Origin: Gammaproteobacteria bacterium
GTDB lineage: Bacteria > Pseudomonadota > Gammaproteobacteria > PS1 > Pseudothioglobaceae
NCBI GenBank assembly: GCA_015659815.1
Contig: DQME01000175.1
Span: 1 to 48,426 of the forward strand
DNA length: 48,426 nucleotides
Direction of reading: 5' to 3'
The notes below the pieces were generated by a model. The model was given only the letters and a program-made list of their open reading frames with translations, ran no database searches and had not been told where the DNA came from. The first letter of the stretch is position 1; each line of letters opens with the position of its first letter. Below are positions 5,316 to 10,207 of the stretch, piece after piece. A program made the position numbers and the translations under genes.

Positions 5316-5768
5316 TTACTTTGCTTTATTTTGTAAGACAGGAAACCTTACTAATAATTCAATAACGTGACTATATCCATCTGTCCCTAATCCAGCAACT
5401 ATAGTGTCAACTGCTGAAGAAATATAAGAAATATGGCGAAATGTTTCACGCAAATGTGGATTTGAAATGTGTAACTCAACTTTATATCCCGAGTAGGATT
5501 TCAATGCATCATGAATAGCGATTGATGTATGAGTATAGGCAGCCGCATTAATGACGATTGCATCCACCTTCTTAGTAATTGCATTTTGTATCCAATCTAC
5601 AATTTCACCCTCATAATTAGACTGCATAAATGTAACATCATGGCCGTCTTTTGAGGCTATCTCTATGCATTTCTTTGAAATACTTTCTAACGTCTCCTTG
5701 CCGTAAATTTCTGGCTCACGTGTACCAAGAAGATTTATGTTAGGGCCGTTTATGACGTAAATATTCAT
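5316..5768 (-). CDS. aroQ: 3-dehydroquinate dehydratase, type II
   Basis: This is the third enzyme of the shikimate pathway, removing water from 3-dehydroquinate to give 3-dehydroshikimate; type II enzymes are dodecamers. At 150 residues it has the family length. The active-site features are intact: NGPNINLLGTREPEIYG (flexible lid with the catalytic Arg and Tyr, residues 7-23), NAAAYTHTSIAIHDAL (about 74-89), and ELHISNPHLRETFRHIS (catalytic His near residue 98). The start ATG abuts the stop of the preceding gene (TAGATG), so the two are translationally coupled. This copy is the canonical enzyme of the pair. Confidence 0.95.
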   Translation of the reverse strand: MNIYVINGPNINLLGTREPEIYGKETLESISKKCIEIASKDGHDVTFMQSNYEGEIVDWIQNAITKKVDAIVINAAAYTHTSIAIHDALKSYSGYKVELHISNPHLRETFRHISYISSAVDTIVAGLGTDGYSHVIELLVRFPVLQNKAK

Positions 5769-6239
5769 CTAATTATTGTTTAGTTGTTTATTAACTGCAT
5801 TAATAGCTAATACATAACTATACATACCAAGTCCACTCACAAATCCAACTGAGCTTCCTAGCGCTTGCAATGGCTTGTGATTTTTTTTGCCTTGCCGAAA
5901 AATATTTTCAATATGAACTTCAATAACTGGCTTGTTTTGTCCACTAATTTTATTGATTGCTGAACTATACATATCTTGATTAATAGATGATGAATGAGAA
6001 TGTCCAACAGGGTTAATTATAAAAGCATCAAAACTATCAATATCATCAATTAAAACACGCAACAACTCAGCCTCATCATCTTTTTGGCGGAAATCCATTT
6101 CAAGGCCAAGAATCTTACAAGTCTCTGAGCATTTTTCTTGAACTATATCTAACGTTAAATTGTCATGACCAATCTCATTACAATTGCTTAAATCTGCTAG
6201 TCCAGGTCCATTTAATATTAATATTTTGTTACTATTCAT
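5769..6239 (-). CDS. Divergent type II dehydroquinase-like protein, catalytic residues replaced
   Basis: This 156-residue protein is a paralog of the AroQ that follows it. It keeps the fold markers LILNGPGLADL (N terminus), FIINPVGHSHSSSINQDM (about 75-92), VIEVHIENIFRQ and GLGMYSYVLAINAV in the right order and spacing. The lid is changed: aligning LGTREPEIYG of AroQ with this copy puts CNEIGH where the catalytic Arg and Tyr belong. The following HISNPHLRETFRH segment becomes HIENIFRQGKKNH. It is therefore unlikely to be an efficient dehydroquinase. It could be a regulatory partner subunit mixing into the AroQ dodecamer, or an enzyme for another small carboxylate. The gene is intact and directly coupled to aroQ, so it is not a decaying copy. 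Confidence 0.75.
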   Translation of the reverse strand: MNSNKILILNGPGLADLSNCNEIGHDNLTLDIVQEKCSETCKILGLEMDFRQKDDEAELLRVLIDDIDSFDAFIINPVGHSHSSSINQDMYSSAINKISGQNKPVIEVHIENIFRQGKKNHKPLQALGSSVGFVSGLGMYSYVLAINAVNKQLNNN

Positions 6240-6352: not shown

Positions 6353-7651
6353 TTACACTTTAAGTGATCCCTGGTCCAAGACGGTACTAACGATAATCTC
6401 AATTACTTCCATACTGCTGTTAGCACTAACATCCTCAAAATAAATCGTTCCCGGCCAAGGTGGCGTCCTTAAACTGTAATTGTTGTTTTGAATAGTGTGT
6501 GCTACAGTTTTTATAGATTCCACATATTCCTTAGAAAGGGTTTTAATTCTATCTTTGGTGGTACTCATATCACCTATAGAATTACGATCAATTTGTGTGG
6601 CTCCAATTCCAATGAAGATAGGAACATTAAGATCAATTGCCTGCTCTTGATATAGGTTAAGTGGCATCCTGTCGTCATGAAGACGCATAACATAATCAGT
6701 ACAAACTTCTTGCTTTACTGCGAATAATTCAGAAAAACTGAACTCCTTAGTGTGAGCATTTTGAGTTGTTACTCTTCTCCTTGATGAGCGAACTATTTTT
6801 TTTGCTTGAGTAACGTAGTCACCCCTATAGTTGGCATCATAAACTCTATACCCCCAAGGATTTTTATTTTTTAATCGAAGTATTGAACGAATCGCCATGT
6901 TTTTACAATTTTCAGGGCCAATAAAAAAAGGAGATCCGGAGGCATCGGACAGCTCTAGCCAGCCATTTGGAAATTTTTCAAAAAAATGATCTCCCCAAGG
7001 GGTTAGTACTTTATCAACCAGATGATTAAGAAGATTATTTACATGCTCAGGCTCATCACTTATGGCTGTTGCCAATTCTGACTGTCCGTAAATGTCGGCC
7101 GCCAAGCTGTAGGGTGCTGTTAGGTGTAATACAGGCTCAAGGCCTGTCAAGTCTTGATAAAAATCGAGCATATCATCGAATAATTTAGGTATTTCGCTAT
7201 CCATTTCTGGTCCCTTTAGACCCCGCCAATTATTTTTATTTATTAATGGTATGCCGGGATCAGTCCCGGGCGGAGCTCCAACAGGGTACATCATTACAGC
7301 TCCTAGAGATTCAGCAGTAAATGCATAAACTGGCCACTCTAAATAGAGCTTAGGTAAACCAAGTAATTTACGAATCATTAAAGATACACGAACGTAACGC
7401 TTTGCATCGCCCTTATAGGCTTCAGCAGAATCTATACCGTAAAGGCTGGTCAATATAGCTAATACGAATAGGTTTATTGAGGCAGAGGCTTGCACAGAGT
7501 GTTGAGAAGGTTTTTGGGCAAACACTTCATCATAATCACCGGCGATGGTTTTATCAAATATCTCCTTCAATCGGTTTAAGGCTTGCTGGTCACCCTCCTG
7601 CCAACGGTGAAAAAGTCGACAACCTCCAGGAAAAATTAATTCTTCAATCAT
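6353..7651 (-). CDS. Uroporphyrinogen decarboxylase-superfamily-like protein of unknown substrate
   Basis: This 432-residue protein resembles the URO-D/cobalamin-methyltransferase superfamily rather than HemE itself. Visible family-like segments are LTAPYSLAADIYGQSEL (about 177-193), a following ISDEPEHVNNLLNHLVDK helix, and NGWLELSDASGSPFFIGPENC (about 229-249). The zinc motif HxCG of MtaA/CmuA-type methyltransferases is not visible, and the length exceeds HemE (about 355). There is no signal peptide and no clear membrane segment. It starts with ATG at 7651, 28 bp after the HD-oxygenase stop, and is the last gene of that operon. A role downstream of the two oxygenases, for example in handling a methylated or carboxylated product, is inference from position only. 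I am unsure of the family at the level of function. Confidence 0.55.
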   Translation of the reverse strand: MIEELIFPGGCRLFHRWQEGDQQALNRLKEIFDKTIAGDYDEVFAQKPSQHSVQASASINLFVLAILTSLYGIDSAEAYKGDAKRYVRVSLMIRKLLGLPKLYLEWPVYAFTAESLGAVMMYPVGAPPGTDPGIPLINKNNWRGLKGPEMDSEIPKLFDDMLDFYQDLTGLEPVLHLTAPYSLAADIYGQSELATAISDEPEHVNNLLNHLVDKVLTPWGDHFFEKFPNGWLELSDASGSPFFIGPENCKNMAIRSILRLKNKNPWGYRVYDANYRGDYVTQAKKIVRSSRRRVTTQNAHTKEFSFSELFAVKQEVCTDYVMRLHDDRMPLNLYQEQAIDLNVPIFIGIGATQIDRNSIGDMSTTKDRIKTLSKEYVESIKTVAHTIQNNNYSLRTPPWPGTIYFEDVSANSSMEVIEIIVSTVLDQGSLKV

Positions 7652-7679
7652 ATAACAATATTTTAATAGGTTGTTGCAA

Positions 7680-8243
7680 TTAGCGTTTTACTAGAGACTC
7701 AACCAGCGGTCTATAATAAGAAAATGGTGGGTGCTTCCTTTCTGGGTCTTTCCCTTCTTCATCCCAATAGCGCACTTGGATACAACGCTCAAAGTAATCA
7801 TTTTTTTCAAACTCTTTAACCTCTTCTGCATTCATTGGCCCACCCTGCAAATTAAGGGTTTGTACTGATGCCGCTGAAAGTCTATCAAAATAATCTGACT
7901 TAACCGCACACAAATAACGCTTTGCATCGACGTGCTGACGAATAGGCTCTACAACAGATATTGGAAAGTAATCTTCCAAAAAATTAGCACCCGCCTCCTC
8001 ATGATAGTTGTCAATGCCTTTGGCTAAAGATGTTTCAGGAATCTCGTTTTTGTAGTGCCCAATATCGTGCAGCAAGGCTGCAACAATTTGACTATCATCA
8101 GCCCCCGCTTTCTCAGCACATTGCGCTGTTTGCAGCATATGTTGCGCCATTGTGACTTGTTCACCTAAATATGATTCTGCTCCACGACGTCTAAAAACGT
8201 CTTCTATATGATCTACAATATTATCAGAACTAATCTTATCCAT
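7680..8243 (-). CDS. PhnZ/TmpB-type HD-domain mixed-valent di-iron oxygenase
   Basis: This 187-residue protein belongs to the HD-domain oxygenases that use an Fe(II)/Fe(III) pair and O2 to cleave the C-P bond of 1-hydroxyphosphonates, releasing phosphate. With the start at 8243 the residues fall almost exactly on PhnZ numbering. Tyr25/Glu28 (YLGE) match the substrate-gating Tyr24/Glu27, and the ligands are His35, His59-Asp60 (LLHDIGH), His81 (NYHEE), His104 (QHVDAK) and Asp161 (RYWDEE). Lys108 and Ser126, near the phosphonate site in PhnZ, are also present. An earlier in-frame ATG (8288) would add 15 residues inside the upstream gene; I reject it. The start overlaps the upstream oxygenase gene by 8 bp. 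It likely acts on the product of that neighbour. The exact phosphonate cannot be read from sequence. Confidence 0.88.
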   Translation of the reverse strand: MDKISSDNIVDHIEDVFRRRGAESYLGEQVTMAQHMLQTAQCAEKAGADDSQIVAALLHDIGHYKNEIPETSLAKGIDNYHEEAGANFLEDYFPISVVEPIRQHVDAKRYLCAVKSDYFDRLSAASVQTLNLQGGPMNAEEVKEFEKNDYFERCIQVRYWDEEGKDPERKHPPFSYYRPLVESLVKR

Positions 8244-9387
8244 TTTGTTGTCTAGCCTCCAAAACATTGAGTAGGCTATAAAGCCCATCTAGGTCTGTAT
8301 AGGCCCCCTGTAAATGGCGCTTACCTTCTTTAGAAAAGGCTGTTCTTGCATGCATTATTCTGGTGTTATCAATTAGCATTAAATCGCCCTCTGAAAGTTT
8401 AAATATAATTTTTAAACTATCCCTTTCAATAATTTCACTCCAATGTCGATAGGCCTTATAAAAAGACCTAACTTTATTATCAGGCAAATGTATAGTGTCT
8501 ATTGACCGATTGTTGTACCTCACCTTAACAATTTCATTGTTGTCATTTAGTTCAATCATAGGCACCCTAGAACGAAGATCAGTAGATGGATCAGTAAACC
8601 TATAATTAACCCAGCTTCTTGTCAAGGTATCAAAATCTTCTTCGCTCTCTTGACGTAAAACGGTGGCAGCCTTAAATCCATCCACAAGAACTGAGTCTCC
8701 GCCCTCAGTCGAGCTTTCTAGGCAATGCAAAAGCTGTACAGTCGGTACAGGGTCTCTATAAGGGTTATCTGTATGAGAGCCTAGACCCATATTTGTATAA
8801 GCAAGGTTGTTAGGGTTAATTTCAGTTCTTACTTCAAATAGGGTGCCATAATTAGTCTCCCTAGTGTAACCCAGCTCACTAATAACATTTAAGACTTGAC
8901 CCTCAATAATTGGAACATTTTCAAGTATAAAAAAACCAACATCTCTAACCATACGAAGAGCATCTAACTTAATGTTATCGTCTTTACATATATCTTCATA
9001 ATTAACAAACGGCAAGCCATCTTCAAAACTGTATTTTTGCCATAAATGTTTTTGTTTCTCGCTTCTATCGTCGAACTGAAGATTTTGGTCGTAACAATTC
9101 TTCCTTAGCCATTCCTGTGAAAAAACTGATAAGTGATTTTCTGGCTGAAAAACAACACACACATTACATTTTTCATCCTTATACACTTGATCTATGTAGG
9201 TTTCTTCAGGTATATCGACTACACTAAATAAGCGCTGCCCATTATTTGCATTTACAGATGTTGGCATTTGGCAATGATCTCGCAACCAATGGCTAAATAT
9301 TCGACTCTTCTTGCCATCATCCCACTCAATGACTAACTCATCACCGATAGTAGAGAGTTTTGTTATGAATTCTTTATGCTTTGACAT
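8236..9387 (-). CDS. Gamma-butyrobetaine hydroxylase / TmpA-like Fe(II)/2-oxoglutarate oxygenase
   Basis: This 383-residue protein has two domains: an N-terminal DUF971-type domain (about 10-100, with FSHWLRDHCQMP) and a TauD-like jelly-roll (about 125-375). The metal triad is His205-x-Asp207 in GSHTDNPYRDP and His346 in RIMHARTAF. The HTDNPYR signature is typical of gamma-butyrobetaine hydroxylases and of TmpA, which hydroxylates 2-trimethylaminoethylphosphonate. Of the N-terminal zinc cysteines of butyrobetaine hydroxylase only Cys39 is evident. I chose ATG at 9387; an in-frame TTG lies at 9417. It is the first gene of a three-gene operon with the HD oxygenase, and that pairing favours TmpA over carnitine synthesis. 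TauD-like or true butyrobetaine hydroxylase activity remains possible. Confidence 0.82.
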   Translation of the reverse strand: MSKHKEFITKLSTIGDELVIEWDDGKKSRIFSHWLRDHCQMPTSVNANNGQRLFSVVDIPEETYIDQVYKDEKCNVCVVFQPENHLSVFSQEWLRKNCYDQNLQFDDRSEKQKHLWQKYSFEDGLPFVNYEDICKDDNIKLDALRMVRDVGFFILENVPIIEGQVLNVISELGYTRETNYGTLFEVRTEINPNNLAYTNMGLGSHTDNPYRDPVPTVQLLHCLESSTEGGDSVLVDGFKAATVLRQESEEDFDTLTRSWVNYRFTDPSTDLRSRVPMIELNDNNEIVKVRYNNRSIDTIHLPDNKVRSFYKAYRHWSEIIERDSLKIIFKLSEGDLMLIDNTRIMHARTAFSKEGKRHLQGAYTDLDGLYSLLNVLEARQQNG

Positions 9388-9475: not shown

Positions 9476-10207
9476 CTAGTCAACATAGGGGCCATACTGC
9501 ACTATAGGCTCAAAGTGGGGCCTGCCAGAGGCATACATTAGTTGACATTCTGAGTGCGCCTTAAGTGTGATCGATTTATTGTTGATATCGAACAGTATTG
9601 ATTGGGCTTTAGTTAAGTGTTCACCTTCAATTTCAAGGCTCCCACTTATTAAGTAGATTAGGCCACTTTCACCTTCAATGTCTTGAATCTCATAAGTCTT
9701 TCCTTGGTTAATAGTCATGTATTCATATTTAATATTGTTTTGCATTCTTACTGGAGACCCTTCGCCCACAATAATAGTCCTTGCAACGCCATCTAAAGAT
9801 ATTATTGGTAGCTCTGCAGCCTCAACAAGTTGGTAAGTTGGTTCCACAGTTTTCAGTTTTTTTTCTAAACTTATCCAAAACTGTATGCCATTATTGTCGC
9901 CCTCTCCCTCTGGCATCTCAGAATGACTAATACCCTTCCCGGCGCAAAATATTTGCGCCCCTCCTGCACTAACTACTGAATCATTCCCTAGATTGTCTTT
10001 ATGCCTCATTGCTCCACTAAACAGAAAAGTTATAGCCTCGAAACCTCTGTGTGGGTGGGTGTCAAAACCTTGCCCTTGTTCAACAACAAAATGGTCAAAC
10101 AATACAAACGGGTCATGATTCATGCGCCTACTACTTACAGGGAACAGCCTGTTTACTGTAACGCCTTGCCCTTCCATAGTGCTTGTTGAGTCTAGTATTT
10201 CAATCAC
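9476..10207 (-). CDS. Pirin family bicupin protein
   Basis: This is a 243-residue pirin-like protein with two cupin domains. The N-terminal metal motif is visible: FDTHPHRGFEAITFLFSG (about 47-64) with further ligands in GKGISHSEMPEG (about 91-102). Bacterial pirins are iron-binding cytoplasmic proteins, some with quercetinase activity and some regulating central metabolism; the role here is not defined. The start is GTG at 10207, two bases after the pyrE stop; this gives the usual MIEI N terminus. Coupling to pyrE suggests co-transcription, not shared function. The C-terminal cupin is the expected less conserved half. Confidence 0.88.
   Translation of the reverse strand: MIEILDSTSTMEGQGVTVNRLFPVSSRRMNHDPFVLFDHFVVEQGQGFDTHPHRGFEAITFLFSGAMRHKDNLGNDSVVSAGGAQIFCAGKGISHSEMPEGEGDNNGIQFWISLEKKLKTVEPTYQLVEAAELPIISLDGVARTIIVGEGSPVRMQNNIKYEYMTINQGKTYEIQDIEGESGLIYLISGSLEIEGEHLTKAQSILFDINNKSITLKAHSECQLMYASGRPHFEPIVQYGPYVD

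Follow-up and report, generated by a model that had tools for sequence, protein, structure and literature searches.

A predicted TmpA/TmpB phosphonate operon with a recurrent UroD-like third gene in a marine-type gammaproteobacterium

The window analysed here is a 48,426-nucleotide stretch of gammaproteobacterial DNA (assembly GCA_015659815.1, contig DQME01000175.1), referred to as contig C79 of a 1.6-Mb genome. It carries a three-gene operon whose first two products are identified, by sequence, as TmpA and TmpB rather than as gamma-butyrobetaine hydroxylase (GBBH) or PhnY/PhnZ. Homology, active-site residues and phylogeny make it very probable that this operon scavenges phosphate from 2-trimethylaminoethylphosphonate (TMAEP) via TmpA/TmpB. 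The third gene encodes a protein of an uncharacterised family with a predicted UroD-superfamily fold. The TmpA/TmpB pathway itself, which acts on a choline-like phosphonate, is already established and is seen here in one more host; with the added third gene the operon becomes a new variant. The source genome belongs to a relative of marine sulfur-oxidisers (Thioglobaceae), and the relatives in which the locus recurs are of the Thioglobaceae/SUP05 type (Candidatus Thioglobus, SCGC AAA007-O20). The operon is laid out as follows:

8236..9387, reverse strand: tmpA, 383 amino acids (aa), Fe(II)/2-oxoglutarate dioxygenase, predicted 2-trimethylaminoethylphosphonate hydroxylase
8236..8243, reverse strand: overlap of the tmpA stop and the tmpB start, 8 bp
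7680..8243, reverse strand: tmpB, 187 aa from the ATG at 8243, HD-domain mixed-valent di-iron oxygenase, predicted (R)-1-hydroxy-2-trimethylaminoethylphosphonate oxygenase (from NF049941, PDB 6npa and motif)
7652..7679, reverse strand: 28 bp separating tmpB from the third gene
6353..7651, reverse strand: third gene, 432 aa, UroD-superfamily protein of an uncharacterised family

The three genes, their overlap and their gap are as an earlier sequence-only reading had described them, and the residues that it had named occupy the positions given: the Fe ligands H205/D207/H346 in TmpA and, in TmpB, the YxxE loop Y25/E28 (a loop described in PMC8177086) together with the metal ligands H35, H59-D60, H81, H104 and D161. 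The overlap of tmpA and tmpB suggests translational coupling, and three relatives have both genes joined in a single reading frame.

The best PDB matches of the first two products are TmpA (6npb, E 1.7e-92) and TmpB (6npa, E 2.2e-57), both beyond chance. The tmpA product passes the cut-off of the TmpA equivalog model NF049936 (428 bits against 400) and also that of the GBBH model TIGR02409 (509 bits against 415), so the models alone leave the choice between the two undecided. The higher GBBH score would favour a true gamma-butyrobetaine hydroxylase in a carnitine-making operon, yet this is extremely unlikely, as the phosphonate-binding arginine is present, the tree groups the protein with 6npb among TmpB-linked genes and the overlapping HD oxygenase has the YxxE loop. 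The solved TmpA binds phosphonate via N187/N287/R288 (PMC9296572), a triad that corresponds to N194/N293/R294 in the window. Human GBBH has Ala at the position of this arginine, and homologues lacking a TmpB neighbour carry Trp, Phe or His there, or Arg within a different motif in which Asp or Ser replaces Asn. In a tree of 53 homologues, a single branch separates all TmpB-linked genes, with the 6npb TmpA and the window protein inside; the set containing these two has an SH-aLRT of 96 and TmpB linkage requires one change only. Similarly, in a draw of 349 genomes from the phylum, all 14 top-scoring TmpA homologues adjoin tmpB and the lower-scoring ones lack such a neighbour, save for distant HD-type matches. 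The phylogeny and the retained triad therefore favour TmpA over GBBH. Since the hydroxylase is TauD/GBBH-like, the PhyH-family partner that characterizes PhnY/PhnZ is missing.

The tmpB product scores 265 bits against the TmpB equivalog model NF049941, which is below its cut-off of 300 and nevertheless the highest score of all models. As its best structural match is 6npa, the protein is TmpB-like by model and TmpB by partner and motif. In three Thioglobaceae metagenome-assembled genomes (MAGs; G030, G054, G058), tmpA and tmpB form in-frame fusions of 569-587 aa in which a short linker connects the two parts:

L071:11928-13691, L072:11464-13173, L073:10625-12376: fused TmpA-TmpB with a UroD-like gene directly downstream

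An assembly slip was ruled out as the source of these fused reading frames, given that the same short in-frame linker occurs in three genomes. Such a natural fusion argues for the hand-over of the hydroxylated intermediate between both enzymes. About 5 kb from the fused genes lies a TmpA paralogue of ~34% identity (L071:5499-6632, L072:5342-6499, L073:4937-6043), which has Asp/Ser/Pro/Arg in the pocket where TmpA has Asn/Asn/Asn/Arg and probably acts on a different trimethylammonium substrate. Separately, a GBBH-like dioxygenase adjoins a 185-192 aa HD protein in L197:863-2679 and L238:893-2565. These HD proteins are 26-30% identical to TmpB and carry YxxD, not YxxE; the two genes may form a TmpA/TmpB-like pair that has not been described before and that acts on another substrate.

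One two-step route is known for the breakdown of TMAEP, in which TmpA/TmpB convert it to glycine betaine and phosphate. The same conversion is expected here because the pair is identified as TmpA/TmpB by models, PDB matches, triad and tree, in agreement with the phosphate-scavenging route that had been proposed from the sequence: TmpA would hydroxylate C1 of TMAEP, and TmpB would then cleave the C-P bond to release phosphate and glycine betaine. It is plausible that this betaine is also used as an osmolyte. Elsewhere in this genome, contig C145 holds together a gene of the MttB family (PF06253), one for a free-standing corrinoid protein (PF02310) and one similar to dimethylglycine dehydrogenase (DMGDH-like). 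By sequence reading, the contig also encodes MetF, Fhs, formate dehydrogenase, a corrinoid activator and a methyltransferase that binds pterin. This complete-looking set matches MtgBCD, a system for the demethylation of glycine betaine that has been reported from marine bacteria (SUP05, SAR324 and roseobacters; PMC12478193), groups in which members of the third-gene family were also found. As the genome carries such a locus, betaine derived from TmpAB has a plausible use as a source of one-carbon units and carbon: it would be demethylated by the MtgB/C/D-type corrinoid system and the DMGDH-like enzymes encoded elsewhere, for which the genes are present and the flux is inferred.

The third protein has no match in Pfam (even at E 10), NCBIfam or the PDB sequences, and a profile search against the latter returned only septin-like chance matches and a weak UroD match (E 0.9). 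A scan of 84,980 species yielded 88 relatives, and 80 loci were retained from these; the family tree was built from 80 proteins, the window's included. The URO-D-like label given by the sequence-only reading is borne out at the level of the family and by the predicted fold. PF01208 (URO-D) is matched at E<=1 by 29 of the 49 aligned relatives (best 1.1e-7), and the AlphaFold model of the protein (pLDDT 90, pTM 0.89) retrieves MtaA first in Foldseek (E 6e-9), followed by UroD (7e-7) and MetE, which places it, by modelled fold, in the UroD superfamily. An hhalign comparison to MtaA plus one homologue reaches 94% probability, the single-sequence version being meaningless. The protein was also considered as HemE and rejected, since a separate HemE is encoded on C13 (462 bits) and PF01208 misses the third protein in its own genome. 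At the position of the MtaA His-x-Cys there is D272-x-N274, and at that of the second Cys E406/D407, all of them strongly conserved, the exact pairing of residues being taken from a remote alignment together with secondary structure. A conserved HxC, as in the zinc site of MtaA/MtbA, was not found across the 80 aligned family members.

The distribution of the third gene was studied in 82 Thioglobaceae genomes plus that of the window, the size of the family being taken from the order of the genome listing. The gene is present in 7 of the 24 tmpA-bearing genomes and in none of the 59 tmpA-negative ones (Fisher p 8e-5, kinship not corrected for). In all seven carriers it directly follows tmpB on the same strand. 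Two genomic locations unrelated to each other are involved, and the fused tmpAB is at the second of them. The total absence of the gene from relatives, which would have spoken against the proposed cluster, was thus not found: the third gene recurs with tmpAB. The idea of a three-step route stands only in part, as the UroD-fold gene does recur with tmpAB but is not an obligatory third step. Outside the Thioglobaceae, tmpAB is present in 17 of the 49 genomes bearing the family, within 10 kb of the family gene in one only, an actinobacterial MAG (L097) in which the two lie 6.4 kb apart. Culturable roseobacters encoding both tmpAB and the family gene include Leisingera aquimarina and Roseovarius albus. 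The frequency of tmpAB in the family-bearing genomes (17/49) compares with 14/349 in the phylum draw, both sets being lineage-biased. Since the third gene is missing from 17 of the 24 tmpAB-bearing Thioglobaceae and close to tmpAB in only one of the 17 distant genomes, it is best regarded as an accessory.

The family tree is split in two: subfamily A (15 members) contains the window protein and the Tmp- and MttB-linked ones, and subfamily B (65 members) mostly has a MocR-type regulator nearby. The relatives in L096 and L099 adjoin MttB and DMGDH-like genes, with PhnW also present in L099. In three Rhodobacterales lineages (L123/124/165/167, L158/L160 and L149), relatives occur at most 10 kb from PhnW, PhnA or PhnY-aldehyde dehydrogenase genes. 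Genes for a PHO4-type transporter and a PhoU_div protein precede the relatives in 15 loci; the phosphate cargo of the PHO4-type protein is uncertain, because the NCBIfam model that it matches best describes a sulfate permease and is hit far below the cut-off. A MocR-type regulator lies near the relatives in 44 of 79 loci, mostly in divergent orientation. Regulators of this type generally use their PLP domain to sense primary amines. The tmpAB linkage in Thioglobaceae and the Phn, PHO4-type and MttB/DMGDH-like neighbours elsewhere make it likely that the family has a functional link to the catabolism of phosphonates and methylated amines, and the third gene is probably a genuine accessory in the breakdown of phosphonates and betaines. 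In several lineages (L160:4368-11314, L107, L118, L127), the UroD-like gene lies within or beside a row formed by a sugar-type ABC transporter, a GABA-type (class III) aminotransferase and an alcohol dehydrogenase, some rows adding a xylose-isomerase-like protein. In L070 (G020:C20, 227-10538), a second UroD-like copy of 47% identity shares its strand with an ABC transporter of the oligopeptide type and with a PehA-like hydrolase of phosphate/sulfate esters (588 bits against a cut-off of 900).

Several scenarios may explain the role of the third protein. The one favored here, by analogy and tentatively, is that it acts like the zinc-free UroD-fold substrate:corrinoid methyltransferases CdmB and MtvB, which move a methyl group from their substrate to a corrinoid protein (PMC13222342). 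Methyl transfer is preferred because zinc-free methyltransferases of this fold are known and a corrinoid apparatus is encoded in this genome. The third protein would demethylate a phosphonate or betaine intermediate that is methylated at N or O, and would hand the methyl group to MtgC, the free-standing corrinoid protein. Mono- or dimethylated aminoethylphosphonate (AEP) is an attractive candidate substrate, since N-methyl-AEP is not accepted by PhnW (PMC10590968), and so are phosphonate methyl esters, since some relatives are near PehA-like esterases. A more specific version is rather speculative. According to it, the proteins would form a new family of B12-dependent demethylases with a zinc-free UroD fold that act specifically on methylated phosphonates, be these aminoethylphosphonates methylated at N or methyl esters of phosphonates. 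If it were true, such a family would couple phosphorus scavenging to one-carbon metabolism via MtgC in abundant marine bacteria. The combination of TmpAB scavenging, an MtgBCD-type outlet and a third protein acting as methyltransferase is judged to have a little less than an even chance of being right as a whole.

Several points weigh against methyl transfer. In addition to the 17 tmpAB-bearing Thioglobaceae that lack the gene, no corrinoid protein gene was recognised beside it in the neighbourhoods examined. A second demethylase would be redundant for glycine betaine, as MtgB-type proteins already cover its demethylation, and TMAEP itself should not lose a methyl group before TmpA acts. Most family members (the 65 of 80 in subfamily B) are apart from tmpAB, many of them divergent from a MocR-type regulator, and the conserved acidic pocket residues would equally fit other chemistry. 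One alternative is that the third protein does belong to a phosphonate pathway but has a UroD-fold activity other than methyl transfer (lyase, decarboxylase or hydrolase), its substrate being a phosphonate or an amine or aldehyde derived from one. The missing zinc ligands of the UroD fold, the subfamily B rows with ABC transporter, class III aminotransferase and alcohol dehydrogenase, the frequent MocR-type regulators and the PHO4-type/PhoU_div genes are all compatible with this possibility, which is nevertheless somewhat unlikely considering that the nearest fold neighbour is a methyltransferase and that subfamily A has MttB and DMGDH-like neighbours. It is also conceivable, if quite unlikely, that the third gene is a passenger lying among phosphonate/betaine genes, or in their regulon, with no part in TMAEP breakdown. 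This would fit its patchy presence, in particular the clean gap at the first genomic place in two close relatives (L075, L076), and its distance from tmpAB outside the Thioglobaceae, but the adjacent, same-strand position in every Thioglobaceae carrier at two sites and its absence from all tmpAB-negative genomes of the Thioglobaceae speak against it. A literature search, with most subscription journals outside its reach, found no paper tying UroD-like proteins to phosphonate catabolism. The recurrence of a third gene common to PhnWAY clusters and methylamine loci points to an unassigned step of marine phosphonate or methyl-group metabolism that is directly testable.

The operon lies in a chromosomal stretch common to many relatives, with pyrE, xthA, trmB, fxsA and folC on one side and two aroQ genes on the other. 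Its immediate neighbours in the window are:

9476..10207, reverse strand: pirin gene (Pfam Pirin), upstream of tmpA, start codon uncertain
5316..6239, reverse strand: two tandem type II dehydroquinase genes (Pfam DHquinase_II), downstream

The dehydroquinase pair is conserved beside tmpB whether or not a relative carries the third gene, and is probably a conserved flank with no functional tie to the operon. The upstream copy of the pair is strongly diverged (71 vs 179 bits) and may differ in function. In most relatives, the place of the pirin gene directly upstream of tmpA is taken by a PhyH-family dioxygenase gene (e.g. L069:7066-7950). Its identification as PhnY was rejected, with 33 bits against the cut-off of 500 of the methylphosphonate-hydroxylase model and below its own ectoine hydroxylase score; it may be a second hydroxylase feeding TmpB. 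In the viral contigs searched, no relative of TmpB or of the third protein was found.

The closest known system is the TmpA/TmpB of Leisingera caerulea (6npb, 6npa), with which the window shares the gene pair, its order and adjacency, the Fe and phosphonate ligands and the YxxE loop, at an identity to the Leisingera relatives of ~42% (TmpA) and ~52% (TmpB). It differs in the additional third gene, in a TmpB below the model cut-off and in the fusion seen in three of its relatives. PhoF, the fungal PhnY-PhnZ fusion (review PMC10574752), likewise joins a hydroxylase and an HD oxygenase in one chain, whereas the Thioglobaceae fusion is bacterial, is made of TmpA and TmpB and uses another hydroxylase family. 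Compared to the MtaA/MtbA methylcobalamin:CoM methyltransferases (4ay7), the third protein is alike in fold, with aligned E-x-LG, A-P-Y-S and D-A-S-G-S regions, but it lacks the His-x-Cys...Cys zinc site and is ~85 residues longer. The MtgBCD system (PMC12478193) has a complete-looking locus in the same genome; this locus is separate, however, and uses an MttB-family protein, not a UroD fold. With CdmB/MtvB (PMC13222342), the third protein shows no detectable sequence match and has its corrinoid partner elsewhere in the genome, yet it likewise combines a UroD fold, the lack of zinc ligands and a similar length (the CdmB chain has 429 aa).

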